Positions 20,550 through 42,900 of a stretch of 64,000 nucleotides of DNA are shown piece after piece; within the stretch, counting starts at the first letter, position 1; every line of letters starts with the position of its first letter. The position numbers and the translations under genes were made by a program. Source of the stretch: Odiellus spinosus (lineage: Eukaryota; Arthropoda; Arachnida; Opiliones; Phalangiidae); contig OY987233.1 of NCBI GenBank assembly GCA_963920705.1, forward strand, positions 14,309,459 through 14,373,458, written 5' to 3'. The notes under the pieces were generated by a model. The model searched no databases, was not told where the DNA came from, and was given only the letters and a program-made list of their open reading frames with translations.

Positions 20550-21340
20550 ATATTCAATGAAAAAATTCGATGAAAAATATTAAAATTAAATATTGAATGA
20601 AAAACCATATTAAAATTAAATATTGAATGAAAAACCATATTAAAATTAAATATTGAATGAAAAACCATATTAAAATTAAATATTGAATGAAAAACCATAT
20701 TAAAATTAAATATTGAATGAAAAACCATATTAAAATTAAATATTGAATGAAAAACCATATTAAAATTAAATATTGAATGAAAAACCATATTAAAATTAAA
20801 TATTGAATGAAAAACCATATTAAAATTAAATATTGAATGAAAAACCATATTAAAATTAAATATTGAATGAAAAACCATATTAAAATTAAATACTGAATGA
20901 AAAACCATATTAAAATTAAATATTGAATGAAAAACCATATTAAAATTAAATATTGAATGAAAAACCATATTAAAATTAAATATTGAATGAAAAACCATAT
21001 TAAAATTAAATATTGAATGAAAAACCATATTAAAATTAAATATTGAATGAAAAACCATATTAAAATTAAATATTGAATGAAAAACCATATTAAAATTAAG
21101 TATTGAATGAAAAACCATATTAAAATTAAATATTGAATGAAAAACCATATTAAAATTAAATATTGAATGAAAAACCATATTAAAATTATATATTGAATGA
21201 AAAACCATATTAAAATTATATATTGAATGAAAAACCATATTAAAATTATATATTGAATGAAAAACCATATTAAAATTATATATTGAATGAAAAACCATAT
21301 TAAAATTATATATTCAATGAAAAACAATATTAAAATTAAT
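20550..21340 (+). repeat. Tandem array, 30-bp unit with AAATATTGAATGAAAAACC
   Basis: About 25 copies at exactly 30 bp. Near the right edge the unit changes from AAATTAAATATTG to AAATTATATATTG for the last five. Since 30 is a multiple of 3, long repetitive frames appear on the minus strand; these are not genes. Confidence 0.95.
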
Positions 21341-22680: not shown

Positions 22681-23440
22681 CGTATAATTTTACGTAACTT
22701 AAGCCTTGGCTTCTTAAGCCTAACGCGTAAAACTTAGGGTGGGCAACTCTCTTTGGATAAATCACGACAGCTTGGGCGCTTGCCCCATTCTTAACCTCCA
22801 CCTCCCTCAAAATGCTTTTATTTAAAAGAGGGGGAATTGAATATTGGAACGCTTATAAGAAATTACAATCTTAGAATGGTTCGTATTTTTCATAGAAAAA
22901 CCGGCTTTTTTCGTGTAATATTAACCCATTCTTAGATTGTAACATGATATATATTTCCGGTCAGTTTAACTTGTTATTGGAGAATATGAATATTGTTCGT
23001 AAACCCCTCGCCTTTGTTAGTACTATTAAGATATATTGGTTTTGAATGGGTGAGGGTGTTTAAAGGGGTTGTGTTCTCTGAATGACGTATTAAAGCACGC
23101 TTCGATTGCTTTCTTAAATGAGCGGATGCTTTTAAAACTAGGAGAGGGGGGTTGCGTGATAGGTGGGGTTCTGGCTGGAGGTTTCGGGGGTTTATATTGA
23201 GAGATTTTACACGCTTAATTTAAAGATGGAATTGATTTTGGAAGGGGGTGGAGTAGCGGGGTTAAAAGGCGATGTTGTGTAGATAAATTTTGAAATTTTG
23301 GTGATTTCGCTTAAAAGGGATTTTGCAGACAAAAGAGGTTTAAATTTATTATTGCTCTATATAGCAAATTTTGTTGTAAATGAATCAATTTGGAGGAAGT
23401 AACTTATATTTTGTGGAAGCTATTATAAAATAATTTTGTC
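22681..23440. other. Left flank of the palindromic element
   Basis: Unique, moderately G-rich non-coding DNA with no gene recognised. It shows no similarity to the right flank except the target-site duplication. Confidence 0.5.
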
Positions 23441-23444
23441 AGGA
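23441..23444. repeat. Left target-site duplication, AGGA
   Basis: AGGA lies directly outside the left tip and again outside the right tip (34997-35000). Because the element tip starts GAGTAG, the direct repeat can be read as AGGA (4 bp), AGGAG (5 bp, leaving AG...TC ends) or AGGAGA (6 bp). From memory, Polintons make 6-bp duplications and have AG...TC ends; the sequence alone does not settle the length. Confidence 0.7.
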
Positions 23445-23469
23445 GAGTAGTAGGTGAAAGGAGAGTTCA

Positions 23470-23483
23470 CCCGCAGGAGCGGG
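23470..23483. other. Subterminal hairpin, left tip
   Basis: CCCGC-AGGA-GCGGG is a 5-bp perfect GC stem with a 4-nt loop, about 25 bp inside the element end. The surrounding DNA is AT-rich, so the hairpin stands out. It may mark a recognition or replication-start structure at the tip (inference). Confidence 0.5.
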
Positions 23484-24438
23484 GGAGCAATATCCGGGCC
23501 TATTTAAAAGTGGAATATTTGTAATCTTATCTTTTTTTCTTTTTTATCTTAAGTTGTTATCTGGGTTTTTAAGTTTATTTGCTATCTTAATTTTTTATTT
23601 TCTATCTTAAGTTGTTATCTGGGCTTTTAAATTAGGATATCTTTTTCCTCTTTCTAAATTATTATATATTCATTAACTATTATATTTTTCTTTCTCATAG
23701 ATAGTTTTAGTTGAATATACGGTTTTCTAAGGTTTATGCTCTCCTATTTGATCTCCAATGATTTATATACTGCCAGAGGTAGACGGTTTTTCCAAAACGG
23801 ACAAAATGTTTTTCTCCCGCTTAGAAAGGGGAACTCCGACCCTTTACAATAGATAAGACCCATTGTAATTGTGGCGTGCGTTCCGACTGTCAGATGTCTT
23901 CTTCTTCTCGATATCCCTTGTTCTATGTAGAGCACCATCTAGTGTTTGAAATCGGTAACTTTCGGCGGAAAAGCAGCCTTAACTATTAGTTTTTCTTTCT
24001 CCTAGATAAAAAGCCCTAAATTCAACTAAAACTACGTTTTCTGCTCTCATATTTGATCTCTAACGATTTATATCTAGGTTTTCTCTTAAAGTAAAGCCCT
24101 TTTACCTAGACCCAGATATGTTCACTATGACTCATATTTACTAATGCTTGTATGTTTAACACTAAGATAAGAGACATTATTTTTGAAAATCAAGTATATT
24201 TATTTGAAACACAACACCAAACCAGTTACACAATATTAGATATTTCAATTGGAACTATATTAAGAAACACTTAAATTAAGACATTAAAAAAATTTGTTAA
24301 AACTAGTTTCAATTATCATTGAGGACTATTTTTAACAGAAAAACTCGTTAAATGGAATATTATCAATACAATGTCATTCTTGTTATCATGGGTATAAAAG
24401 TCCGTATTTACACAACTTTGAGTGGAAAAAACCTTAAA
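23484..24438. other. Left arm 3' region between polymerase stop and tip
   Basis: This is about 1 kb of AT-rich non-coding DNA downstream of the left polymerase gene. On the minus strand an AATAAA polyadenylation signal lies at 24199-24204, about 235 nt past the stop. Two diverged direct repeats (about 23705-23770 and 24005-24085) share a GTTTTCT...CTCTCATATTTGATCTC-type core with an AACGATTTATAT-like end. A 64-aa open frame (23744-23938, minus) ends inside the first of these; it resembles nothing I know and is preserved only because the palindrome is near perfect. Confidence 0.6.
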
Positions 24439-27400
24439 CTAATCGACTTCCATCGCGCTTTCATTAATCTTATAATGTCCATGAGCTAGTGTTGTTATTC
24501 CATCCGAAAGTATGTATCTCTTATCATCGGCAGCTGTCATCCCACACTTATTTTGTTGGATGGTATATAGATCATGGTTATAACTCTGGATTTTTGTCAT
24601 TTCCACTCTCTTAATTTCCTTCTTAAAAAGGCAGTCCCGATAGTTCTTGTGGTTTAAAGCATGTTTTACCACACTCTTACTCACACCCTTTGCCCGCTTA
24701 GACTCCACGCCTCCTTTAGCGTACGAATACAGTTTCGGTCTTAAGGCCACGAGTTCTGAGATAGGTTCACCGAAACTCTCATCTTTCATTTTGCCAAGTT
24801 TCTTCTTATTAACCTCACTGTGAAGGAAATGGGTCTTGGGCATATCTGAAGTGTCATAATGGTGAGAATGAAGCAGCATATCTTTGTAGATATCATCCGT
24901 CTCAATGCAATAGGTTAAAGAGTCGGTGTCCGTTAATAGCAGCTTAGCTTTATCACCATACTGCACTCTTATTTGGTTGTAGTGAAAGTCATACATGAGG
25001 TACTTGCTTAGTTCGAGAATGCAAAAACCAACATATATAGGTCGGTTGAGGAGTAGCTTTTTCCGATAGCTACTAACGGCAACTAGATCTTCATTGAACA
25101 CATTCACAGACTTGAATGATGGAGAGGCCGCAACCTTGGTCAGGCGCTTTTCGGTATGAATAAGTTCCACATTCGATCGAATCCTCAAATTCTCCATCGT
25201 CTTGCCAAACACACTATTATTCATCAACTTGAAAAACGACTTTTCAAACTCATTATTTGCCAATTTTCTTTGTTCGGTATTGAAGTCGATGTATGACTTC
25301 ATCCATGGAGATTGACTAAATTCGATCACTTGATGGATTTTGGTTAGTCGTATTCCTAAAGCTACATAGAGTTGAAGGTTGCGGTAATGTATGACGTAAT
25401 CTGACTTGTCATTCAAATTGGGCAATAGTTTTTTGATATTAGGAGAGTGTTTCAGACCTAATGTTTTTAACAACTCCGTAGAGTAAGGTGAAAGCATATC
25501 TTCAGTAATATTGACATTTTCAGGAGCTAATGGATAATCGCTATGACTGTCATGTAAAGAGGGAGGATACTCTAAATCTACTTTTAAAATGTAACCCTTA
25601 GCAGACTGTGAATCAACTTTTAAAAAATCAAGGCAGCTAATTTCTTCATCACTCAACCAACGAAACCCACCAGTTGGCATGGGTTGGGACATTGCCCAAC
25701 CGTAGAGATTATTAGCGTCATAATACATAATATATGTCTTAGGATCTGTGGGGTTATAATCCTCTAAATAAGGGTTATTTGCCTTGGCATATCGATGAGA
25801 TATCATCGAGATACCCCCACGAATCCCTTCTTCGCATAACAAATGCATATCAATATCGGTAAAAAGTTCGAGTTCAACATTCGACTTCTTAAGACAAGCC
25901 TGCCAAGCGAGACCGGGAGAAGTTAGAAAATATCCACCAGGATCCAATTCATAATGTTTCCTACATACATCCCTAAAATTCTCAAAAACATCAGCTAACA
26001 ATAAAACGTCCGTTTTATTATATAATTCCTGATACGCCCCAAGATTTTCAATTTCGAAGCTTTCCCAAATTGACTTGGCAAAGTCATAATCATCTTGAGG
26101 GAGAGGTTCACTAGTAAGACTATTATGAAAAGCCTCTATAGGTGGTAGAGATGTTTCTAAAAACCTATCTTCACAATCTATATAATCATAAGGAAATACT
26201 CCTTTCCTGGTTAACAGAGGGACCTTATCCAGAGGAATGCAAGAAGATAGAAGCTTAAAGTTCTGCAAGCCTGCTTTTGATAAATTATTCACAAGACTGT
26301 CTAAGGAACTAGACATAAACTGAAATGAATCAATAAATTTATACCCACCTATGGTGAACGAGACATATTTCTCAACATTATTTGCAATGCATAACAACTT
26401 TCTATCTTTATACTTCCCAATGCTCGACATTAAAATGTGACTATCATAATTTCTTAAATTGTGAAATACAACAGGGATGGTTTTGGAGGCTTTGAAATTT
26501 AAATTGCAAACGTTACAGGCAGGACCACGATATATACCAGTCATATGATCATGGTCCCTTACCTTATTTGTCAAATCATTCTTACAAATATGACACATAG
26601 TTGCATGTCTAAAGCTCTCCTCCTCCTCTTCAGATATAATCATAGGTTTGTTGATCCCAACCCTGCCTAAAAGTTCGGCCTCTATCTCCATTAAAGAGTC
26701 GAGAAACCTTTCGGAAGCATCACTCCCCCTATAGTTAACTGGTCCCTTATAAAGATCTCCATTGTAGTCAACAACGATATAACAGAAGCCTGAAGGGATA
26801 TGTTTTCCAATTTTAGTAGTGGAGGGGATGTTAGGATTCGGTTTGCAAACAGATATTTTTGGAATCATGCATTCAAAATCTGCGTATATAATATAGGGAG
26901 TTTTAAAGGAATATCGATGGCCCTCAAATTTCAGTACATTCTCGCCAACTAAAGGCAATGCAATTTTTTGAGCTGCATGTGCATTGCAGTTAATTGAATG
27001 CTGTTTAAGAATATCTCCATTACTAAATCTATGTAGACATCTTCTACAATAGAACTTCTTGCCATTATGCTTGGTTAATGATCCAAGTAGACGACTCAAA
27101 CTTCTAATTGAGCAATAATGCTTTTGAAAACCATCAGATATAAGAAGCAAATCCACTTCCCTATCCTCTGTCACAATTTTCTCACTTACGAATAGTGGAA
27201 TCACCTCACTATCTTCATATCCAAAAACATTAATTGACAAATTGTTCAACTCCTCAAATCTAGAAACTTGAGAGATCTCCATCGGGAAGGAAAACCCTTT
27301 AACGTGAAGTTCATTCAGGAAAGGCTCATAGCTCGAAACACGATCGCTATCCTTCACTATTTCTTTATGTAGAGAAGCTAGAATACTATAGATAAAACAA

Positions 27401-28283
27401 CGAGAATCCTTGTTTTGAACATTAACAATTGCTTTCTTAGCCTTTAGAACGCTGGGTAGATCCACATAGCTAGACCCATACAGAGGAGTATACATCAAGA
27501 TGTTTAAATCTAACCTTTCTATGGTGTCAACCACCCAACCACTCCCCATATGAATGAAATTACTACATAGATTTAAAATTTGAGCAAAAGATCGGTCTAA
27601 CTTAAGATTAACACTATCTTTAGAAGTCAGAGTTACCCGACAAAACCCGTGAAAAATCGAAGTAGTATATCTATCCCCACAAATATCTGAATCCATGGCT
27701 CGTATAAACCTAACAACTACGGCCACATACCATTTAACGGCCCTCTTACCTTCCTCCATAACTCTCAAAATTTCACATCTAAGTTTTGGCTTAACTAGTT
27801 GAAAAAATTTGCTAAGATCGACAAATTCACCCTTTGGACGAAATTTATAGCAACCAACCCGTCCATTAATGGCACTGACATTTTCAAATAGTTCACATAC
27901 ATCTTCCAACTCACTACCTTCATCATACTTTACGTCAACCTCCGAATCTATATCTAAACTACAACTACCGCAATTATGCGAATCCAAATCAAATTGGGTA
28001 TCGAAATGCTTCGAGCATTGACTACAAACATGTTTAACGATCACACCTAGAGAGAAATAAATGATATAAGCCATCAACTGATTAGAATATTTAAATATTT
28101 GAGATACATACCTAATAATCCTTCGTGCGAAATTCTATGCTTCTTCAAATTAGAAAGTCGTAAAAACGACTTGCTACAAATCTCGCATTTAAAAGCGGGT
28201 TTTTCACCATGTTGCTCCTTTTCGTGACGTTTCAGATTTTTCCGCTGTGAGAATGTTCTATCACAGTTAGTGCATGAAAACAT
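24439..28283 (-). CDS. Zinc-finger, endonuclease VII-like, family-B DNA polymerase (left arm copy, two exons)
   Basis: This is the mirror copy of the gene in the right arm, with an identical translation. On the minus strand exon 1 is 28283-28112, the intron is 28111-28047 (GT...AG, 65 bp) and exon 2 is 28046-24439, giving 1259 aa. It contains the same three N-terminal C2H2 fingers, Exo I (YADFE), an endonuclease VII-like Cys/His module, Exo II (NLRNYDSH), Exo III (YNKTD), motif A (DANNLYG), motif B (KLMNNSVFG), motif C (DTDS) and KLY. No stop or frameshift interrupts it, so both copies look able to make an active enzyme. It is transcribed leftward, away from the palindrome centre. The identity of the two copies implies recent duplication, gene conversion, or insertion as a ready-made palindrome. 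Confidence 0.95.
28047..28111 (-). other. 65-bp intron in left polymerase gene
   Basis: On the minus strand the intron starts GTATGT and ends TTTCTCTCTAG. It is a phase-1 intron whose removal joins the short zinc-finger frame to the long polymerase frame at a glycine codon. It mirrors the right-arm intron exactly. Confidence 0.85.
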
Positions 28284-29203
28284 TATAAAATTAACGCAAT
28301 AGTCAGAGACTTGGAATTTAGATGACTTTACTCTTCAAAGATCTGGCGTAGAATGAATTTAAATGCAGCATCATCGATAGATATACCAAGATATAAGGAG
28401 GGTGTACTATGAACTGTGATATCAGTCTATCATGTTGACTTAGACAATAAGACAAAATACATGTACGAATCGGGAGAATAAAATCGAGATGACTTCACTC
28501 TTCAAAGATCAGGCAAACAATAAATTTAAATGTGGACCGTCGCTAGACATACACCGAGATAACCAGGACTATATGATAAAATGAATTTACGAGCCAATAC
28601 TTAAAGCAATCCGAATTTAAATACTAGATCGTTTAGGGAAAAACATCAGTCTTATCTTATCGATGTTGAAAATTTCAAATACTGCAATAACGGGGAAAAT
28701 CCTATTTCGTCATTGTAAGTATGGAAAAACCCAATTCATGATGTCTTTATCACTAAACTTAAACCAAAGAGGTGGTTTTTCCGAGTAAATATTGCGAAAA
28801 CGGTATGATTGAACTTGTGGTAAAACCCGAGTCGACATTGCACAATGGAACTAGAACCTAAGGATCGCCATATTTAGGATAAACACATTAAAAAACCTCC
28901 GACAAGAGATATCTCTTATCTATAAACAAGATAAACAGGGGAATCCCGCAAATAAAGGGGAAAACCCCAATTCGCTAAACTTAAACCAAAGAGGTGGTTT
29001 TTCCAGGAAAATATCAAATATTAGGATAAAAAGAGAGGAGAAATTCACAGATAAGCTCATTTCTCGACACTTTGCAGCCTGTCTTATCTTAATCGTAGAT
29101 AAACACTTGAAAAAACCTCTGATAAGAGATATCTATTATCTATAAACAAGATAAAAAGGGCAATCCAAATTAATTTAAAAAAAGGGGGAGGAGGGGGTCG
29201 TCC
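28284..29203. promoter_or_regulatory. Left half of the central divergent 5' region
   Basis: This is about 0.9 kb between the left polymerase start and the palindrome centre. There is no open frame of note. It is built of diverged direct repeats. A block beginning GATGACTTTACTCTTCAAAG occurs near 28321 and again near 28488. A block with AACCAAAGAGGTGGTTTTTC occurs near 28759 and 28983. A block with GAGATATCT...CTATAAACAAGATAAA occurs near 28905 and 29125. Repeated modules upstream of a gene, mirrored on the other side, suggest shared promoter or replication-factor sites; no specific factor can be named. Confidence 0.5.
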
Positions 29204-29236
29204 GCACCTTTTTGATGCTCGCCTTGGCGAGCAAAG
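29204..29236. other. Palindrome centre: 33-nt spacer with inner hairpin
   Basis: The arms stop pairing at 29203/29237. The spacer contains GCTCGCC-TT-GGCGAGC (29217-29232), a perfect 7-bp stem with a 2-nt loop. Flanking it in the stems is a strand-biased tract, A7 then GGGGGAGGAGGGGG in the left arm, with one extra A in the right-arm equivalent. The layout resembles a resolved hairpin telomere or a fold-back priming point (inference). Confidence 0.85.
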
Positions 29237-30157
29237 GGACGACCCCCTCCTTCCCCCTTTTTTTAAATTAATTTGGATTGCCCTTTTTATCTTGTTTATA
29301 GATAATAGATATCTCTTATCAGAGGTTTTTTCAAGTGTTTATCTACGATTAAGATAAGACAGGCTGCAAAGTGTCGAGAAATGAGCTTATCTGTGAATTT
29401 CTCCTCTCTTTTTATCCTAATATTTGATATTTTCCTGGAAAAACCACCTCTTTGGTTTAAGTTTAGCGAATTGGGGTTTTCCCCTTTATTTGCGGGATTC
29501 CCCTGTTTATCTTGTTTATAGATAAGAGATATCTCTTGTCGGAGGTTTTTTAATGTGTTTATCCTAAATATGGCGATCCTTAGGTTCTAGTTCCATTGTG
29601 CAATGTCGACTCGGGTTTTACCACAAGTTCAATCATACCGTTTTCGCAATATTTACTCGGAAAAACCACCTCTTTGGTTTAAGTTTAGTGATAAAGACAT
29701 CATGAATTGGGTTTTTCCATACTTACAATGACGAAATAGGATTTTCCCCGTTATTGCAGTATTTGAAATTTTCAACATCGATAAGATAAGACTGATGTTT
29801 TTCCCTAAACGATCTAGTATTTAAATTCGGATTGCTTTAAGTATTGGCTCGTAAATTCATTTTATCATATAGTCCTGGTTATCTCGGTGTATGTCTAGCG
29901 ACGGTCCACATTTAAATTTATTGTTTGCCTGATCTTTGAAGAGTGAAGTCATCTCGATTTTATTCTCCCGATTCGTACATGTATTTTGTCTTATTGTCTA
30001 AGTCAACATGATAGACTGATATCACAGTTCATAGTACACCCTCCTTATATCTTGGTATATCTATCGATGATGCTGCATTTAAATTCATTCTACGCCAGAT
30101 CTTTGAAGAGTAAAGTCATCTAAATTCCAAGTCTCTGACTATTGCGTTAATTTTATA
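29237..30157. promoter_or_regulatory. Right half of the central divergent 5' region
   Basis: This is the mirror of 28284-29203, with the same diverged direct repeats. The sequence just upstream of the right ATG is AT-rich (TTATATCTTGGTATATC near 30050). The most promoter-proximal repeat pair lies at about 29876-29960 and 30045-30124. No other gene is visible here. Confidence 0.5.
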
Positions 30158-33100
30158 ATGTTTTCATGCACTAACTGTGATAGAACATTCTCACAGCGGA
30201 AAAATCTGAAACGTCACGAAAAGGAGCAACATGGTGAAAAACCCGCTTTTAAATGCGAGATTTGTAGCAAGTCGTTTTTACGACTTTCTAATTTGAAGAA
30301 GCATAGAATTTCGCACGAAGGATTATTAGGTATGTATCTCAAATATTTAAATATTCTAATCAGTTGATGGCTTATATCATTTATTTCTCTCTAGGTGTGA
30401 TCGTTAAACATGTTTGTAGTCAATGCTCGAAGCATTTCGATACCCAATTTGATTTGGATTCGCATAATTGCGGTAGTTGTAGTTTAGATATAGATTCGGA
30501 GGTTGACGTAAAGTATGATGAAGGTAGTGAGTTGGAAGATGTATGTGAACTATTTGAAAATGTCAGTGCCATTAATGGACGGGTTGGTTGCTATAAATTT
30601 CGTCCAAAGGGTGAATTTGTCGATCTTAGCAAATTTTTTCAACTAGTTAAGCCAAAACTTAGATGTGAAATTTTGAGAGTTATGGAGGAAGGTAAGAGGG
30701 CCGTTAAATGGTATGTGGCCGTAGTTGTTAGGTTTATACGAGCCATGGATTCAGATATTTGTGGGGATAGATATACTACTTCGATTTTTCACGGGTTTTG
30801 TCGGGTAACTCTGACTTCTAAAGATAGTGTTAATCTTAAGTTAGACCGATCTTTTGCTCAAATTTTAAATCTATGTAGTAATTTCATTCATATGGGGAGT
30901 GGTTGGGTGGTTGACACCATAGAAAGGTTAGATTTAAACATCTTGATGTATACTCCTCTGTATGGGTCTAGCTATGTGGATCTACCCAGCGTTCTAAAGG
31001 CTAAGAAAGCAATTGTTAATGTTCAAAACAAGGATTCTCGTTGTTTTATCTATAGTATTCTAGCTTCTCTACATAAAGAAATAGTGAAGGATAGCGATCG
31101 TGTTTCGAGCTATGAGCCTTTCCTGAATGAACTTCACGTTAAAGGGTTTTCCTTCCCGATGGAGATCTCTCAAGTTTCTAGATTTGAGGAGTTGAACAAT
31201 TTGTCAATTAATGTTTTTGGATATGAAGATAGTGAGGTGATTCCACTATTCGTAAGTGAGAAAATTGTGACAGAGGATAGGGAAGTGGATTTGCTTCTTA
31301 TATCTGATGGTTTTCAAAAGCATTATTGCTCAATTAGAAGTTTGAGTCGTCTACTTGGATCATTAACCAAGCATAATGGCAAGAAGTTCTATTGTAGAAG
31401 ATGTCTACATAGATTTAGTAATGGAGATATTCTTAAACAGCATTCAATTAACTGCAATGCACATGCAGCTCAAAAAATTGCATTGCCTTTAGTTGGCGAG
31501 AATGTACTGAAATTTGAGGGCCATCGATATTCCTTTAAAACTCCCTATATTATATACGCAGATTTTGAATGCATGATTCCAAAAATATCTGTTTGCAAAC
31601 CGAATCCTAACATCCCCTCCACTACTAAAATTGGAAAACATATCCCTTCAGGCTTCTGTTATATCGTTGTTGACTACAATGGAGATCTTTATAAGGGACC
31701 AGTTAACTATAGGGGGAGTGATGCTTCCGAAAGGTTTCTCGACTCTTTAATGGAGATAGAGGCCGAACTTTTAGGCAGGGTTGGGATCAACAAACCTATG
31801 ATTATATCTGAAGAGGAGGAGGAGAGCTTTAGACATGCAACTATGTGTCATATTTGTAAGAATGATTTGACAAATAAGGTAAGGGACCATGATCATATGA
31901 CTGGTATATATCGTGGTCCTGCCTGTAACGTTTGCAATTTAAATTTCAAAGCCTCCAAAACCATCCCTGTTGTATTTCACAATTTAAGAAATTATGATAG
32001 TCACATTTTAATGTCGAGCATTGGGAAGTATAAAGATAGAAAGTTGTTATGCATTGCAAATAATGTTGAGAAATATGTCTCGTTCACCATAGGTGGGTAT
32101 AAATTTATTGATTCATTTCAGTTTATGTCTAGTTCCTTAGACAGTCTTGTGAATAATTTATCAAAAGCAGGCTTGCAGAACTTTAAGCTTCTATCTTCTT
32201 GCATTCCTCTGGATAAGGTCCCTCTGTTAACCAGGAAAGGAGTATTTCCTTATGATTATATAGATTGTGAAGATAGGTTTTTAGAAACATCTCTACCACC
32301 TATAGAGGCTTTTCATAATAGTCTTACTAGTGAACCTCTCCCTCAAGATGATTATGACTTTGCCAAGTCAATTTGGGAAAGCTTCGAAATTGAAAATCTT
32401 GGGGCGTATCAGGAATTATATAATAAAACGGACGTTTTATTGTTAGCTGATGTTTTTGAGAATTTTAGGGATGTATGTAGGAAACATTATGAATTGGATC
32501 CTGGTGGATATTTTCTAACTTCTCCCGGTCTCGCTTGGCAGGCTTGTCTTAAGAAGTCGAATGTTGAACTCGAACTTTTTACCGATATTGATATGCATTT
32601 GTTATGCGAAGAAGGGATTCGTGGGGGTATCTCGATGATATCTCATCGATATGCCAAGGCAAATAACCCTTATTTAGAGGATTATAACCCCACAGATCCT
32701 AAGACATATATTATGTATTATGACGCTAATAATCTCTACGGTTGGGCAATGTCCCAACCCATGCCAACTGGTGGGTTTCGTTGGTTGAGTGATGAAGAAA
32801 TTAGCTGCCTTGATTTTTTAAAAGTTGATTCACAGTCTGCTAAGGGTTACATTTTAAAAGTAGATTTAGAGTATCCTCCCTCTTTACATGACAGTCATAG
32901 CGATTATCCATTAGCTCCTGAAAATGTCAATATTACTGAAGATATGCTTTCACCTTACTCTACGGAGTTGTTAAAAACATTAGGTCTGAAACACTCTCCT
33001 AATATCAAAAAACTATTGCCCAATTTGAATGACAAGTCAGATTACGTCATACATTACCGCAACCTTCAACTCTATGTAGCTTTAGGAATACGACTAACCA

Positions 33101-34002
33101 AAATCCATCAAGTGATCGAATTTAGTCAATCTCCATGGATGAAGTCATACATCGACTTCAATACCGAACAAAGAAAATTGGCAAATAATGAGTTTGAAAA
33201 GTCGTTTTTCAAGTTGATGAATAATAGTGTGTTTGGCAAGACGATGGAGAATTTGAGGATTCGATCGAATGTGGAACTTATTCATACCGAAAAGCGCCTG
33301 ACCAAGGTTGCGGCCTCTCCATCATTCAAGTCTGTGAATGTGTTCAATGAAGATCTAGTTGCCGTTAGTAGCTATCGGAAAAAGCTACTCCTCAACCGAC
33401 CTATATATGTTGGTTTTTGCATTCTCGAACTAAGCAAGTACCTCATGTATGACTTTCACTACAACCAAATAAGAGTGCAGTATGGTGATAAAGCTAAGCT
33501 GCTATTAACGGACACCGACTCTTTAACCTATTGCATTGAGACGGATGATATCTACAAAGATATGCTGCTTCATTCTCACCATTATGACACTTCAGATATG
33601 CCCAAGACCCATTTCCTTCACAGTGAGGTTAATAAGAAGAAACTTGGCAAAATGAAAGATGAGAGTTTCGGTGAACCTATCTCAGAACTCGTGGCCTTAA
33701 GACCGAAACTGTATTCGTACGCTAAAGGAGGCGTGGAGTCTAAGCGGGCAAAGGGTGTGAGTAAGAGTGTGGTAAAACATGCTTTAAACCACAAGAACTA
33801 TCGGGACTGCCTTTTTAAGAAGGAAATTAAGAGAGTGGAAATGACAAAAATCCAGAGTTATAACCATGATCTATATACCATCCAACAAAATAAGTGTGGG
33901 ATGACAGCTGCCGATGATAAGAGATACATACTTTCGGATGGAATAACAACACTAGCTCATGGACATTATAAGATTAATGAAAGCGCGATGGAAGTCGATT
34001 AG
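30158..34002 (+). CDS. Zinc-finger, endonuclease VII-like, family-B DNA polymerase (right arm copy, two exons)
   Basis: Exon 1 (30158-30329) and exon 2 (30395-34002) join to 1259 aa. C2H2 fingers lie at residues 4-25 and 33-53, linked by HGEKPAF as in tandem fingers, with a C2HC finger at 65-83 completed by the splice. Another CX2CX12HX4C finger starts near 391. Residues 274-367 (CFIYSILA ... HYC) match a conserved region of animal zinc-finger/DNA polymerase proteins. The polymerase core has Exo I DFE (447), Exo II NLRNYDSH (Asp 592), Exo III YNKTD (Asp 737), motif A (Asp 834), a long A-B spacing that could hold the protein-priming insertions, motif B KLMNNSVFG (997), motif C DTDS (1097) and KLY (1162). 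An endonuclease VII-like module, CX2C...VRDHDHMTGIYRG...CX2C, sits near 542-580, between Exo I and Exo II. Expected role: DNA-templated replication of its own element, probably protein-primed (inference from family). The start is the first ATG before finger 1. Confidence 0.96.
30330..30394 (+). other. 65-bp intron in right polymerase gene
   Basis: GTATGT donor, TTCTAAT branch-like sequence and a pyrimidine-rich TTTCTCTCTAG acceptor. The phase is 1: exon 1 ends with the first G of a Gly codon completed by GT of exon 2. Unspliced, the 69-aa frame stops just inside exon 2's upstream sequence, so splicing is needed to put the first two fingers on the polymerase. Confidence 0.85.
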
Positions 34003-34957
34003 TTTAAGGTTTTTTCCACTCAAAGTTGTGTAAATACGGACTTTTATACCCATGATAACAAGAATGACATTGTATTGATAATATTCCATTTAACGAGTTT
34101 TTCTGTTAAAAATAGTCCTCAATGATAATTGAAACTAGTTTTAACAAATTTTTTTAATGTCTTAATTTAAGTGTTTCTTAATATAGTTCCAATTGAAATA
34201 TCTAATATTGTGTAACTGGTTTGGTGTTGTGTTTCAAATAAATATACTTGATTTTCAAAAATAATGTCTCTTATCTTAGTGTTAAACATACAAGCATTAG
34301 TAAATATGAGTCATAGTGAACATATCTGGGTCTAGGTAAAAGGGCTTTACTTTAAGAGAAAACCTAGATATAAATCGTTAGAGATCAAATATGAGAGCAG
34401 AAAACGTAGTTTTAGTTGAATTTAGGGCTTTTTATCTAGGAGAAAGAAAAACTAATAGTTAAGGCTGCTTTTCCGCCGAAAGTTACCGATTTCAAACACT
34501 AGATGGTGCTCTACATAGAACAAGGGATATCGAGAAGAAGAAGACATCTGACAGTCGGAACGCACGCCACAATTACAATGGGTCTTATCTATTGTAAAGG
34601 GTCGGAGTTCCCCTTTCTAAGCGGGAGAAAAACATTTTGTCCGTTTTGGAAAAACCGTCTACCTCTGGCAGTATATAAATCATTGGAGATCAAATAGGAG
34701 AGCATAAACCTTAGAAAACCGTATATTCAACTAAAACTATCTATGAGAAAGAAAAATATAATAGTTAATGAATATATAATAATTTAGAAAGAGGAAAAAG
34801 ATATCCTAATTTAAAAGCCCAGATAACAACTTAAGATAGAAAATAAAAAATTAAGATAGCAAATAAACTTAAAAACCCAGATAACAACTTAAGATAAAAA
34901 AGAAAAAAAGATAAGATTACAAATATTCCACTTTTAAATAGGCCCGGATATTGCTCC
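34003..34957. other. Right arm 3' region between polymerase stop and tip
   Basis: This mirrors 23484-24438. The AATAAA polyadenylation signal is at 34237-34242, within a run CAAATAAATATAC. Two diverged direct repeats lie at about 34356-34436 and 34671-34736. The 64-aa frame 34503-34697 is unrecognised and probably not a gene. Confidence 0.6.
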
Positions 34958-34971
34958 CCCGCTCCTGCGGG
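34958..34971. other. Subterminal hairpin, right tip
   Basis: This is the mirror copy of the left-tip hairpin: CCCGC-TCCT-GCGGG, 25 bp inside the right end. It is preserved perfectly in both arms. Confidence 0.5.
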
Positions 34972-34996
34972 TGAACTCTCCTTTCACCTACTACTC

Positions 34997-35000
34997 AGGA
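34997..35000. repeat. Right target-site duplication, AGGA
   Basis: This is the partner of the AGGA at 23441-23444. The following bases GA extend the match to AGGAGA. Removing the element and one copy joins TTTTGTC-AGGAGA-TGGTTAAA as a plausible empty site. Confidence 0.7.
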
Positions 35001-35059
35001 GATGGTTAAATAAAAGGTAAAATAAAATATTTATGCAAATAAATAAACAAATTAACAAT

Positions 35060-35450
35060 ATTAAAGTATCAATGCAACCTAACAAGTGATTCCGTATCGT
35101 TTAAATAGGCCTAATCCACCAAAATACATTTTTACAAATCAATTTAATCAATTTGAAACTAACCCCGAAATAGGCTTAGCTTGAATCATGGAGATACCGA
35201 ATCTCTTAGCATTGAAGAGTCAGCGACCAATTAACAAAAACCCATCGTTAAGACGAGATATCTATGAGATTTCCAATAACATTCGATTGGTTGCTGACCC
35301 TTCAATGGGAAGAAATTCAGGATCTTCATGAATCCAGCTAAGCCTATTTTGATTGAAAGTTTTAAATTTATTTCTAGTTTAATATTTGTTTGTAATTTTT
35401 TTCTACTGGTGGATTAGGACTATTTAAAACGATAAGGAATCGATAAAAAG
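35060..35450. mobile_element. F1 foldback MITE, copy next to the element
   Basis: Begins TTAAAGTATCAATGCAACC. Long inverted arms carry CGTTTAAATAGGCCTAATCC at the left and GGATTAGGACTATTTAAAAC at the right; inner arms carry TCAGCGACCAATTAAC / GATTGGTTGCTGACCC. It lies 60 bp from the right tip of the palindrome and is a host repeat, not part of the element. Confidence 0.8.
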
Positions 35451-38688: not shown

Positions 38689-41303
38689 GGGAATTAAATA
38701 TTAATCGTTTCTGTGGGAATTAAATATTAATCGTTTCTGTGGGAATTAAATATTAATCGTTTCTGTGGGAATTAAATATTAATCGTTTCTGTGGGAATTA
38801 AATATTAATCGTTTCTGTGGGAATTAAATATTAATCGTTTCTGTGGGAATTAAATATTAATCGTTTCTGTGGGAATTAAATATTAATCGTTTCTGTGGGA
38901 ATTAAATATTAATCGTTTCTGTGGGAATTAAATATTAATCGTTTCTGTGGGAATTAAATATTAATCGTTTCTGTGGGAATTAAATATTAATCGTTCCTGT
39001 GGGAATTAAATATTAATCGTTCCTGTGGGAATTAAATATTAATCGTTCCTGTGGGAATTAAATATTAATCGTTCCTGTGGGAATTAAATATTAATCGTTC
39101 CTGTGGGAATTAAATATTAATCGTTCCTGTGGGAATTAAATATTAATCGTTCCTGTGGGAATTAAATATTAATCGTTCCTGTGGGAATTAAATATTAATC
39201 GTTCCTGTGGGAATTAAATATTAATCGTTCCTGTGGGAATTAAATATTAATCGTTCCTGTGGGAATTAAATATTAATCGTTCCTGTGGGAATTAAATATT
39301 AATCGTTCCTGTGGGAATTAAATATTAATCGTTCCTGTGGGAATTAAATATTAATCGTTCCTGTGGGAATTAAATATTAATCGTTCCTGTGGGAATTAAA
39401 TATTAATCGTTCCTGTGGGAATTAAATATTAATCGTTCCTGTGGGAATTAAATATTAATCGTTCCTGTGGGAATTAAATATTAATCGTTCCTGTGGGAAT
39501 TAAATATTAATCGTTCCTGTGGGAATTAAATATTAATCGTTCCTGTGGGAATTAAATATTAATCGTTCCTGTGGGAATTAAATATTAATCGTTCCTGTGG
39601 GAATTAAATATTAATCGTTCCTGTGGGAATTAAATATTAATCGTTCCTGTGGGAATTAAATATTAATCGTTCCTGTGGGAATTAAATATTAATCGTTCCT
39701 GTGGGAATTAAATATTAATCGTTCCTGTGGGAATTAAATATTAATCGTTCCTGTGGGAATTAAATATTAATCGTTCCTGTGGGAATTAAATATTAATCGT
39801 TCCTGTGGGAATTAAATATTAATCGTTCCTGTGGGAATTAAATATTAATCGTTCCTGTGGGAATTAAATATTAATCGTTCCTGTGGGAATTAAATATTAA
39901 TCGTTCCTGTGGGAATTAAATATTAATCGTTCCTGTGGGAATTAAATATTAATCGTTCCTGTGGGAATTAAATATTAATCGTTCCTGTGGGAATTAAATA
40001 TTAATCGTTCCTGTGGGAATTAAATATTAATCGTTCCTGTGGGAATTAAATATTAATCGTTCCTGTGGGAATTAAATATTAATCGTTCCTGTGGGAATTA
40101 AATATTAATCGTTCCTGTGGGAATTAAATATTAATCGTTCCTGTGGGAATTAAATATTAATCGTTCCTGTGGGAATTAAATATTAATCGTTCCTGTGGGA
40201 ATTAAATATTAATCGTTCCTGTGGGAATTAAATATTAATCGTTCCTGTGGGAATTAAATATTAATCGTTCCTGTGGGAATTAAATATTAATCGTTCCTGT
40301 GGGAATTAAATATTAATCGTTCCTGTGGGAATTAAATATTAATCGTTCCTGTGGGAATTAAATATTAATCGTTCCTGTGGGAATTAAATATTAATCGTTC
40401 CTGTGGGAATTAAATATTAATCGTTCCTGTGGGAATTAAATATTAATCGTTCCTGTGGGAATTAAATATTAATCGTTCCTGTGGGAATTAAATATTAATC
40501 GTTCCTGTGGGAATTAAATATTAATCGTTCCTGTGGGAATTAAATATTAATCGTTCCTGTGGGAATTAAATATTAATCGTTCCTGTGGGAATTAAATATT
40601 AATCGTTCCTGTGGGAATTAAATATTAATCGTTCCTGTGGGAATTAAATATTAATCGTTCCTGTGGGAATTAAATATTAATCGTTCCTGTGGGAATTAAA
40701 TATTAATCGTTCCTGTGGGAATTAAATATTAATCGTTCCTGTGGGAATTAAATATTAATCGTTCCTGTGGGAATTAAATATTAATCGTTCCTGTGGGAAT
40801 TAAATATTAATCGTTCCTGTGGGAATTAAATATTAATCGTTCCTGTGGGAATTAAATATTAATCGTTCCTGTGGGAATTAAATATTAATCGTTCCTGTGG
40901 GAATTAAATATTAATCGTTCCTGTGGGAATTAAATATTAATCGTTCCTGTGGGAATTAAATATTAATCGTTCCTGTGGGAATTAAATATTAATCGTTCCT
41001 GTGGGAATTAAATATTAATCGTTCCTGTGGGAATTAAATATTAATCGTTCCTGTGGGAATTAAATATTAATCGTTCCTGTGGGAATTAAATATTAATCGT
41101 TCCTGTGGGAATTAAATATTAATCGTTCCTGTGGGAATTAAATATTAATCGTTCCTGTGGGAATTAAATATTAATCGTTCCTGTGGGAATTAAATATTAA
41201 TCGTTCCTGTGGGAATTAAATATTAATCGTTCCTGTGGGAATTAAATATTAATCGTTCCTGTGGGAATTAAATATTAATCGTTCCTGTGGGAATTAAATA
41301 TCA
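38689..41303 (+). repeat. Large 26-bp satellite array (about 100 copies)
   Basis: The unit contains GGGAATTAAATATTAATCG followed by TTCCTGT. About 2.6 kb, practically identical throughout. The first roughly 12 copies carry TTTCTG and all copies from about 38992 carry TTCCTG, with a sharp switch. The array ends with a damaged unit (TATCAGTTCGGGGG) that leads into the 29-bp array. Confidence 0.97.
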
Positions 41304-41526: not shown

Positions 41527-42485
41527 CTACTATCAATGTCTAGATTAAAAATGCTCTGGTAATCTAAATATAAATTAAATTAACGTGTAAATTAACGTGT
41601 AAATTAAATGATAAAGATAGGAGAAATTAATTCTAAATGACTTACATCATTCTATCGTCAAAGCATTTCCTAGTGTTTATAAAATTGAAAGTCTAAAAAA
41701 ACGATTAATGTTTTGGACTGGAATATTCATCCATGATGGCCGATCTTTTGAATTTAATGTTTTTGGAAAGTTATATAACCCCCTTCAATTTCATGTTAGT
41801 GATGCTTCCCCCTTCTTGGAGGTAAGAAAAGGGGTGTTTAAAGGCGTCATTAAAATGCCTGTAATGAGATCCCTTTTTCTATAATATACTTCGGGATATT
41901 TTTTTTAAACCACGCCCCTTGGATTCTCCTGACCCGAACGCGGCTAAGATTTTCCATTCAGGTTTTTTCACCTCTAATAAATTTAATAACAAAACTTCAG
42001 TAACTTTCTCAGTTATCTAATGATCATAGTTAATGCGTTTTTGAAATGAGATATCGTTACTTTTCAAAACTCATTTTTTAAATTTAAAATAATATTTTTT
42101 TTTTATTATTTCAATGGCGTGATTTTAATCTTAAAAGCTTCGTATTAATAGACATACTATATATTTTGTAACAATCTTAAAATGGATCTAAAGTTATATA
42201 GAAAAACGGTTCATTTTGATATTTTTCTAAAGTTGCAACTGAGTGTAAGACTCGTATCGCTATTTTAAGGACTTAAAATAAAATCATACATCAATTTTTT
42301 AAATTTTAAATGATTTATTTATAGGTTTCAGTATGAAAAAAATTAAAGTGATTCTGATATTTTTTGTTTTGGAAATAATTTTTTGTCATTAGGAATTTAT
42401 TCATGTTTAAAATTTACTTTTGGGTCCAAAATTATGATTAATTTCACAAGGAGACCCTGTACTATATTTAACCCAAAAACAAGTT
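41527..42485. other. Non-coding region
   Basis: AT-rich unique DNA with no gene recognised. AAATTAAAGTGATTCTGATA near 42343 resembles an isolated R1 end. Confidence 0.4.
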
Positions 42486-42900
42486 ATTTTTTATCGATTC
42501 CTTATTGTTTAAATAGGCCTAACCCGCTAGTGAAAAAAAAATTACGAACAAATATTAAACTAGAAATAAATTTTAAACTTACCCGGAAAATAGACTTGGC
42601 GGGATTCATGGAGATCCTGATTTCCTCGCGTATAAGGTCTAGCGACCAATCTAACGCGATTGTAAGTCTCCTGGAGATCTCGCGTGAACGACGGGCCTTT
42701 GCTCATTGGTCGCTAGACCTTACACCGAGGCAATTCAGGATCTCCATGAATCCCGCTAAGCTTATATTTTTCGTAGGTTTTAAATTTATTTCTAGTTTAA
42801 TAATTCTTTTGTAAACTTTTATCGGTGGATTAGGCCTATTTAAACGATGAGGAATTTATAAAAAAAGAACACTTTTTATTAGGTTGCATTCTCTCTTTAA
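42486..42900. mobile_element. F1 foldback MITE, best-preserved copy
   Basis: Outer arms have TTGTTTAAATAGGCCTAACC at the left and GGATTAGGCCTATTTAAACG at the right, ending GGTTGCATTCTCTCTTTAA (42882-42900). Inner arms pair TCATGGAGATCCTGA / TCAGGATCTCCATGA and GGTCTAGCGACCAAT / ATTGGTCGCTAGACC. A 143-aa frame across it is an artefact. Confidence 0.85.

Follow-up and report, generated by a model that had tools for sequence, protein, structure and literature searches.

In the present work, we examine an insertion in the genome of Odiellus spinosus (assembly GCA_963920705.1, contig OY987233.1). It lies in a stretch of 64,000 nucleotides, positions 14,309,459 to 14,373,458 of the forward strand, which is called the window below and to which all coordinates without a contig number refer. 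The element occupies 23446-34995 (11,550 bp) and is a near-perfect palindrome with a small central loop, each half of which contains a gene for a family-B DNA polymerase (PolB). We compare it with its other copies in the same genome, with the Mavericks (Polintons) resident there, and also with known systems elsewhere.

The palindrome and its polymerase gene

A repeat search of the window returned inverted arms at 23445-29197 and 29244-34996, 5,753 nt each, with a spacer of 46 nt. An earlier interpretation made from the letters of the window (the sequence-only reading) had described the whole insertion as one inverted repeat, and this holds: the arms show no mismatch across their first 5,745 positions, after which there is a 1-nt gap close to the centre. 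The ends given there, 23445 and 34996, are each one base too wide. The element starts with AGTAGTAGGTGAAAGG, ends with the reverse complement of AGTAGTAGGTGAAAGG, and is flanked by a 6-bp target site duplication. The features are as follows.

23440 to 23445, no strand: left target site duplication CAGGAG, read from the sequence
23446 to 29197, minus strand: left arm, with terminus AGTAGTAGG at its outer end (repeat search and arm comparison)
24439 to 28046, minus strand: PolB exon 2 of the left arm, mirror copy, within the frame 24439-28134 (mirrored coordinates)
28047 to 28111, minus strand: PolB intron of the left arm, mirror copy, predicted
28112 to 28283, minus strand: PolB exon 1 of the left arm, mirror copy (mirrored coordinates; the arms are identical)
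29198 to 29243, no strand: central spacer and only asymmetric part of the element; an imperfect, GC-rich hairpin with an A/G-rich tract on one side and a C/T-rich tract on the other
29244 to 29972, no strand: noncoding module next to the centre; most of it has 92-95% identity with the central parts of palindromes with another PolB lineage
29244 to 34995, plus strand: right arm, with terminus CCTACTACT at its outer end (repeat search and arm comparison)
30158 to 30329, plus strand: PolB exon 1 of the right arm, two C2H2 zinc fingers
30330 to 30394, plus strand: intron of the right arm, 65 nt, GT...AG, predicted; exon 1 ends in LLG likewise in subfamilies B and C (see below)
30395 to 34002, plus strand: PolB exon 2 of the right arm, with an Endonuclease VII-like zinc motif and exonuclease and polymerase motifs; stop TAG at 34000-34002
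34996 to 35001, no strand: right target site duplication CAGGAG, read from the sequence

In each arm, a single long frame of 1,231 codons follows the C2H2 zinc-finger exon and a GT-AG intron of 65 nt, and both gene copies are predicted to be transcribed from the centre towards the ends. The claim that each half carries an intact, spliced family-B polymerase gene and no other is thus confirmed, in that a two-exon PolB but no other recognisable gene was found. There is no second long open reading frame (ORF) in the window element that could represent an integrase, a capsid protein, a packaging ATPase or a protease, and a Pfam scan of the two PolB exons and a 96-codon frame gave no transposase domain.

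In addition to the family-B polymerase domain, Pfam gives an Endonuclease_7 match (E 1.3e-6), the zinc-motif residues of which are kept in relatives, one of them named an adintovirus PolB. With residues 330-1220 as query, 7,069 of the 7,998 proteins scored were found at E <= 0.001. The 120 relatives listed share 48-56% identity with it; where an organism is named it is an invertebrate, and two are labelled adintovirus PolB. A search of the PDB by sequence gave no match for PolB. When a structure model of residues 331-1230 (predicted local distance difference test, pLDDT, 88) was used in a fold search of the PDB, on the other hand, the top eight matches were all phi29 DNA polymerase (E 7.3e-17 to 3.5e-14), and the first other family-B enzyme followed at E 7.2e-9. 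The phi29 DNA polymerase is the model protein-primed enzyme. On the basis of the modelled fold and the conserved motifs, PolB is likely a phi29-like polymerase of the protein-primed type.

The palindrome family and the equality of its arms

In the following, C-numbers denote contigs of this genome and E-numbers copies of the element. The genome (443 Mb, 286 contigs) contains 42 DNA matches to PolB exon 2, and 31 of these are located inside 14 palindromes that have both ends. Six form subfamily A (the window, C4, C1, C5, C72 and C137), seven subfamily B (88%; C274, C14, two copies on C5, C7, C12 and C17) and one subfamily C (81%; C8). A 6-bp target duplication is present at all 14 (CAGGAG, TTTGGC, CACATT, AGAGTT, TTTGTG, CGTCCT, ATTAGT, TTCCTT, GATACT, AACTGT, AGGTTA, ATGGGT, GTGATA and GTGAAT). 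Likewise, AGTAGTAGG stands at both ends of all 14, AGTAGTAGGT ends are found in each, and the ends are of the Maverick type, (AGT)2. The terminal 16-mer pattern AGTAGTAGGTRAWAGG has 34 matches in the 443 Mb, compared to 1 for the reversed control, and 28 of the 34 are the paired ends of the 14 palindromes. The palindromes, at different sites and with their own duplications, thus constitute a family, and the supposition of the sequence-only reading that its integrated form is a head-to-head dimer is borne out.

Several trivial origins can be considered at this point. A palindrome of 11.5 kb is too long for chance, and a host gene with an inverted duplication is rejected because of the target duplications at each site. 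Another possible source of perfect arms around a tiny spacer is sequencing itself, by way of a read that folds back or a hairpin adapter that was missed. We reject such an artefact as very unlikely, to the point of being negligible, since 14 loci have matched 6-bp duplications, insertions or deletions are found in one arm only in E2, E4, E5, E7 and E13, and the centre is asymmetric and conserved. Later internal insertions or deletions are found in the C72, C137 and C17 copies.

Exon 2 is open at the full length of its subfamily in 9 of the 12 A arms and 12 of the 14 B arms, while in subfamily C one arm has an open stretch of 449 codons and the other one of 1,116. Comparison of A with B gives a synonymous divergence (dS) of 0.51 and a nonsynonymous-to-synonymous ratio (dN/dS) of 0.113, and comparison of A with C values of 1.06 and 0.094, respectively. 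As judged from these substitution patterns, PolB is under purifying selection in the subfamilies. A satellite running on a borrowed polymerase would not keep a gene of its own so constrained, and PolB probably therefore copies its own element. Of the 120 listed relatives, 61 entered a tree, namely every other one and P0080 (Parasteatoda house spider adintovirus PolB). Here, a single long-stemmed clade with support 1.0 unites the polymerases of A, B and C with that of a relative on C2, and it is nested in a clade that holds spider sequences.

Most copies were read as separate halves. Not counted among the 14 are E15 (C2), E16 (C3), E17 (C11) and two fragments, namely a truncated single arm of subfamily A with 99.5% identity at C8:5.50 Mb (C8:5501783-5503079) and a solo terminal fragment on C137 (C137:503762-503881). 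The relative on C2 (C2:2273984-2282439; L044, L036) is single-armed and has an intact PolB of 1,315 codons in one frame. An end-like motif, AGTAGTAGGG, is found 4.5 kb past the gene, with an ORF of 249 codons and no Pfam match in between. It is possible that this locus represents a monomer or an older relative.

The arm statistics are based on the ten well-preserved copies E1-E4 and E7-E12, with E5, E6, E13 and E14 left out. Within each of these copies, the arms differ by 0-7 substitutions over ca 5.7 kb, and copies of one subfamily differ from each other by up to 16. There are 39 gap-free variable sites among the ten copies, 21 of which are alike in both arms of every copy (9 of 13 in A and 12 of 26 in B); eight of these mark off E4, one E1 and four E10. 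The sites with a difference between arms are found in E7 (six), E12 (five), E11 and E12 jointly (two), E4 (three), E2 (one) and E10 (one). In old copies, the arm-to-arm identity is 96% (E14) and 69-79% (E17). Since recent copies have near-identical arms and old ones have drifted, the arms appear to be nearly equal at copying and to diverge later, such that their identity is set at propagation. Gene conversion of resident copies was also considered as the sole cause of arm identity, and was rejected because the old copies diverge.

The remaining inequalities are informative. E12 has a 9-nt deletion and three substitutions in one arm that E11 has in both, and each of the two copies still differs arm-to-arm at two centre-near sites. 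At three sites of E7, the left arm has the state of E10-E12 and the right arm that of E8 and E9. These patterns imply that an unequal-armed palindrome can be transmitted as a unit and partly equalised. As far as can be read from these copies, some of the arm inequality is inherited, and the arms are re-equalised in propagation, not always fully. Such partial equalising would be explicable by copying of a folded single strand, or by panhandle repair from the ends inward.

Centres, a second polymerase lineage and the resident Mavericks

The centres of A and B can be aligned, and both orientations of the asymmetric hairpin occur among the ten copies compared. At equal distance from the middle, the centre-near DNA of A and B is 76-78% identical, which means that the central junction is older than the split between the two. 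No match of the centre to subfamily C was found. The short inverted repeat with a loop at the centre is what same-strand template switching (copy-back) would leave behind.

The 914 noncoding bases adjacent to the centre also match mirror-image loci at C14:18.93, C169:1.16, C8:4.70 and C13:19.85 Mb (positions 32-729, 92-95%). The innermost 320 positions are matched separately on C14, C169 and C8 at 93-94%, and partial centre matches are found on C3 and C11. Directly outside the C8 match, 600 bases open a different zinc-finger frame. A polymerase piece of 303 amino acids beside the C3 relative is 43-46% identical to A, B and C. Used as query, it gives polymerase matches at 73% that form outward pairs at the C14, C169, C8 and C13 centre loci, and at all four the midpoint of the pair is, arithmetically, that of the centre match. 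These second-lineage palindromes do not carry the exact terminal 16-mer of the A/B/C family. Because two very different polymerases are found around nearly identical centres, the palindromes seem, from the alignments, to exchange parts between polymerase lineages.

Regarding the resident Mavericks, Pfam gives one ORF of the locus L051 (from C4) an rve integrase match that passes the cut-off and a chromo match that narrowly misses it, and this ORF adjoins a putative capsid ORF. The model of the latter (pLDDT 83) has a fold like the major capsid proteins of mavirus and of the nucleocytoplasmic large DNA virus type. All 50 listed PDB matches are capsid or capsid-scaffold proteins, mavirus among them, which we take to come from double-jelly-roll viruses, and many of the 50 listed viral structure matches are named capsid proteins. 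Pfam and PHROGs do not name this ORF, and no capsid name occurs among its 120 listed sequence relatives; its label is thus one given by the predicted fold. In the genome, at least 119 matches to the capsid ORF and at least 114 to the integrase were found, corresponding to at least 112 and 110 merged loci, respectively, which are possible helpers. The resident Maverick integrases include families of 374 and 356 amino acids, and integrase/capsid pairs are located, for example, at C4:1.52 Mb and C13:19.33 Mb. These genome counts are lower bounds, as the candidates scored were the best 111 of 1,401 for the integrase, 116 of 855 for the capsid, and 38 of 660 and 130 of 371 for the polymerases.

The orientation of neighbouring loci was analysed for 114 of 114 integrase rows, 118 of 119 capsid rows, 49 of 49 polymerase rows and 150 of 173 rows of a second polymerase set. 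Same-strand matches less than 1.5 kb apart (5 kb for the first polymerase set) were merged first, which hides close same-strand pairs. A complete-looking Maverick set on C4 has the polymerase at 12792532 (+), the capsid at 12796505 (-) and the integrase at 12798920 (-), with the modules facing inward. All 14 pairs of neighbouring integrase loci less than 15 kb apart are convergent, and so are all 7 such capsid pairs; random scatter would give ca 0.4 pairs of any orientation in each case. The polymerases outside A, B and C form 8 convergent and 5 outward pairs, the latter being the four second-lineage centre loci and one fragment pair 201 bp apart. At three loci (C2:11937897-11944973, C11:9371646-9378722 and C232:87575-94651), integrases in opposite orientation are found at both ends, with an outer span of 7,076 each and one listed capsid match in between. 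These are possibly a second kind of mirror-image Maverick, and from the match positions mirror-image arrangements seem to arise repeatedly in this genome.

The frequency of such opposite-strand pairs of ordinary Maverick genes could speak for dead by-products, i.e. copy-back molecules of the defective-interfering kind that are repeatedly made from Mavericks and do not propagate themselves. We consider this quite improbable, because purifying selection acts across dS 0.5-1.1, and because the long-branch clade apart from other polymerases and the centre common to A and B show that the palindrome is inherited.

Another option considered was that gene conversion lengthened the terminal inverted repeats of a standard Maverick to the point where they joined, with no copy-back and with the arms kept equal by conversion. 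The integrase-flanked loci on C2, C11 and C232 could be intermediate arrangements of this kind, and the partly homogenised E11 and E12, together with the sites at which arms differ, are consistent with it. In-place conversion is weak, however, in view of the older copies with diverged arms. Furthermore, the polymerase faces the ends, unlike in most vertebrate Mavericks, where the modules are directed inward (PMC8097293), so that the element is not simply a standard end that grew inward. We find this origin unlikely.

The sequence-only reading had proposed that the element may be an undescribed class of self-replicating transposon. The palindromic, polymerase-only mobile family stands, whereas a class apart from Polintons does not, since the ends, the 6-bp duplication and the polymerase are of the Maverick/Polinton type and Mavericks with integrase and capsid fill the same genome. 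In the same way, "self-replicating" fits, while "self-integrating" does not, as no integrase gene was found in the element. That reading had also named the case in which all other copies carry integrase and capsid genes as standard Polintons; neither gene is conserved between A and B. A self-sufficient new class would require that the polymerase protein, with its Endonuclease VII-like motif, also integrates the element, with no helper. In its favour, PolB is the only ORF conserved between A and B (no other of >=40 codons is, except frames overlapping it), the Endonuclease_7 match is present, and among 34 merged PolB loci there is one with listed integrase or capsid matches less than 12 kb away, which sit outside its terminus. 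However, integrase-bearing Mavericks have the same 6-bp duplication and (AGT)2 ends (PMC8097293), the zinc-motif residues also occur in relatives and are thus not particular to the palindromes, and integrases are plentiful in the genome. Self-sufficiency of this kind therefore appears doubtful to us.

Some further repeats are found in and around the element. A subterminal stretch of 146 bp in the arms (34524-34669, mirrored at 23772-23917) is also dispersed elsewhere in the genome: 26 of its 41 matches are further places with 83-95% identity (best 40 of 161 candidates scored), and it looks like a short-interspersed-element-like repeat carried within both arms. Just beyond the right end, at 35168-35349, there is an 84% inverted repeat with 64-nt arms that resembles a small hairpin transposon, with related stretches at 42478-42900 and on C2. 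Minisatellites are plentiful in the window (38689-41301, 20577-21339 and other arrays), including one with a 26-nt unit repeated ca 100 times and one with a 30-nt unit repeated 25 times.

Proposed mechanism and comparison with known systems

The element fails as a standard Maverick, in that integrase and capsid were not found, yet it is, on the sequence features above, clearly of Maverick descent. We consider it fairly probable that it is a palindromic satellite derived from a Maverick/Polinton, which replicates itself via protein priming and hairpin (copy-back) intermediates and uses a Maverick integrase in trans, with the complete palindrome as the unit of inheritance. The element thus represents a new Maverick variant, palindromic and polymerase-only, which probably replicates itself and borrows integration. 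A Maverick integrase is favoured because the 6-bp duplication and the (AGT)2 ends match those given for vertebrate Mavericks in PMC8097293.

In this mechanism, PolB would copy its own element in the form of linear extrachromosomal DNA, with a protein-primed start at the (AGT)2 ends followed by strand displacement. The displaced single strand would fold into a 5.8-kb hairpin, the open end of which is a normal origin. Copying of the hairpin through the central loop would then yield the 11.5-kb palindrome, both arms being made from one and their identity thereby reset, and the integrase of a co-resident capsid Maverick would insert it in trans. The ancestor would have been Maverick-like, with a polymerase pointing to its end and everything else subsequently lost, and the first palindrome was probably created when copy-back took place at a short inverted repeat that is now central.

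It is important to state what weighs against this proposal. The duplications of E4, E5 and E14 count for less, as E5 and E14 are flanked by a tandem repeat and the two sides of E4 are mutually alike, and outside the 14 palindromes the terminal 16-mer occurs at six further places only. The intact C2 relative (ca 75% nucleotide identity) shows a single arm within the 19.5 kb read, and the palindrome form is thus not universal in the wider clade; similarly, 5 of the 9 listed second-lineage loci are one-sided (C11, C3 twice, C149 and C9; 71-73%). A parent with an outward polymerase plus further genes was not found among the best-scored candidates. The equalising of the arms is incomplete, as at 18 of the 39 variable sites at least one copy has unequal arms, and the opposite-strand pairs of ordinary Mavericks are known as match positions only. 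Finally, the extrachromosomal form, the hairpin, the terminal protein and the transcript are predictions from genome sequence, and the action of the integrase on these ends, as well as a matching of the ends to those of capsid Mavericks, is presumed.

A bolder form of the satellite proposal, which we put forward only tentatively and hold to be rather unlikely, is that of an obligate life form. Every cycle would pass through a half-length hairpin, with both arms rewritten from one, and the Maverick system would be split into polymerase-only palindromes, of at least two lineages trading centres, and mirror-image integrase/capsid forms, i.e. a multipartite, mutually dependent transposon-virus system.

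If the satellite proposal is true, a natural mobile element has been reduced to one polymerase gene in two-fold symmetry and is kept by selection. It would be a clean case of a satellite that has dispensed with integration and capsid and retains replication. Both the identity of the arms at insertion and their later divergence can be read from the genome, which would make Maverick replication intermediates testable and provide a clock for each insertion. In addition, the family shows that a eukaryotic genome can retain palindromes of more than 11 kb at many sites even where the spacer is tiny.

Concerning earlier reports, searches of open-licence PubMed Central, a collection that subscription papers are largely outside of, gave no paper on palindromic or polymerase-only Mavericks, as judged from titles and abstract starts. 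According to PMC8097293, vertebrate Mavericks have a 6-bp target duplication, 5'-(AGT)2//(ACT)2-3' ends and a phi29-like PolB, all of which the palindromes share. The Mavericks described there are 12.7-24.6 kb long, with inverted repeats of 46-1,447 bp and, in most, modules that point inward. The palindrome, in contrast, is 11.55 kb and below this range, its inverted repeat is the entire half-element, its polymerase points outward, and it has no integrase, capsid, ATPase or protease ORF.

With adintoviruses, the likeness is in the polymerase, which has 50% identity to P0080 in the region compared. The integrase and capsid genes of adintoviruses are not in the palindrome, as judged from the ORFs of the window element and the A-B conservation. 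In IMG/VR, no close relative was found for the window protein or for two metagenome relatives, and a search with alignment gave one distant contig, L040, at 41% identity. This 17.4-kb contig is adintovirus-like: its PolB adjoins an ORF that is integrase-like by resemblance, and another, packaging-ATPase-like ORF matches a terminase family in PHROGs. Its capsid-like probe has no match in the Odiellus spinosus genome and does not align with that of L051 (best E 0.22).

Bidnaviridae resemble the palindromes in having a protein-primed PolB outside a Polinton, and their genome pieces are 6.0-6.5 kb; they are packaged single-stranded DNA viruses, and the portions of the literature covered do not describe them as a palindromic or integrated family. 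Foldback and Galileo of Drosophila share very long inverted repeats with the palindromes. The transposase of Foldback and Galileo is of another kind, and they are not known to have a DNA polymerase gene. Palindromes derived from linear end-replicating DNA are also represented by the symmetric adenovirus recombinants (SYREC) and by the head-to-head dimers of linear Paramecium mitochondrial DNA. These are by-products or organelle intermediates, and not a transposing, selected lineage.

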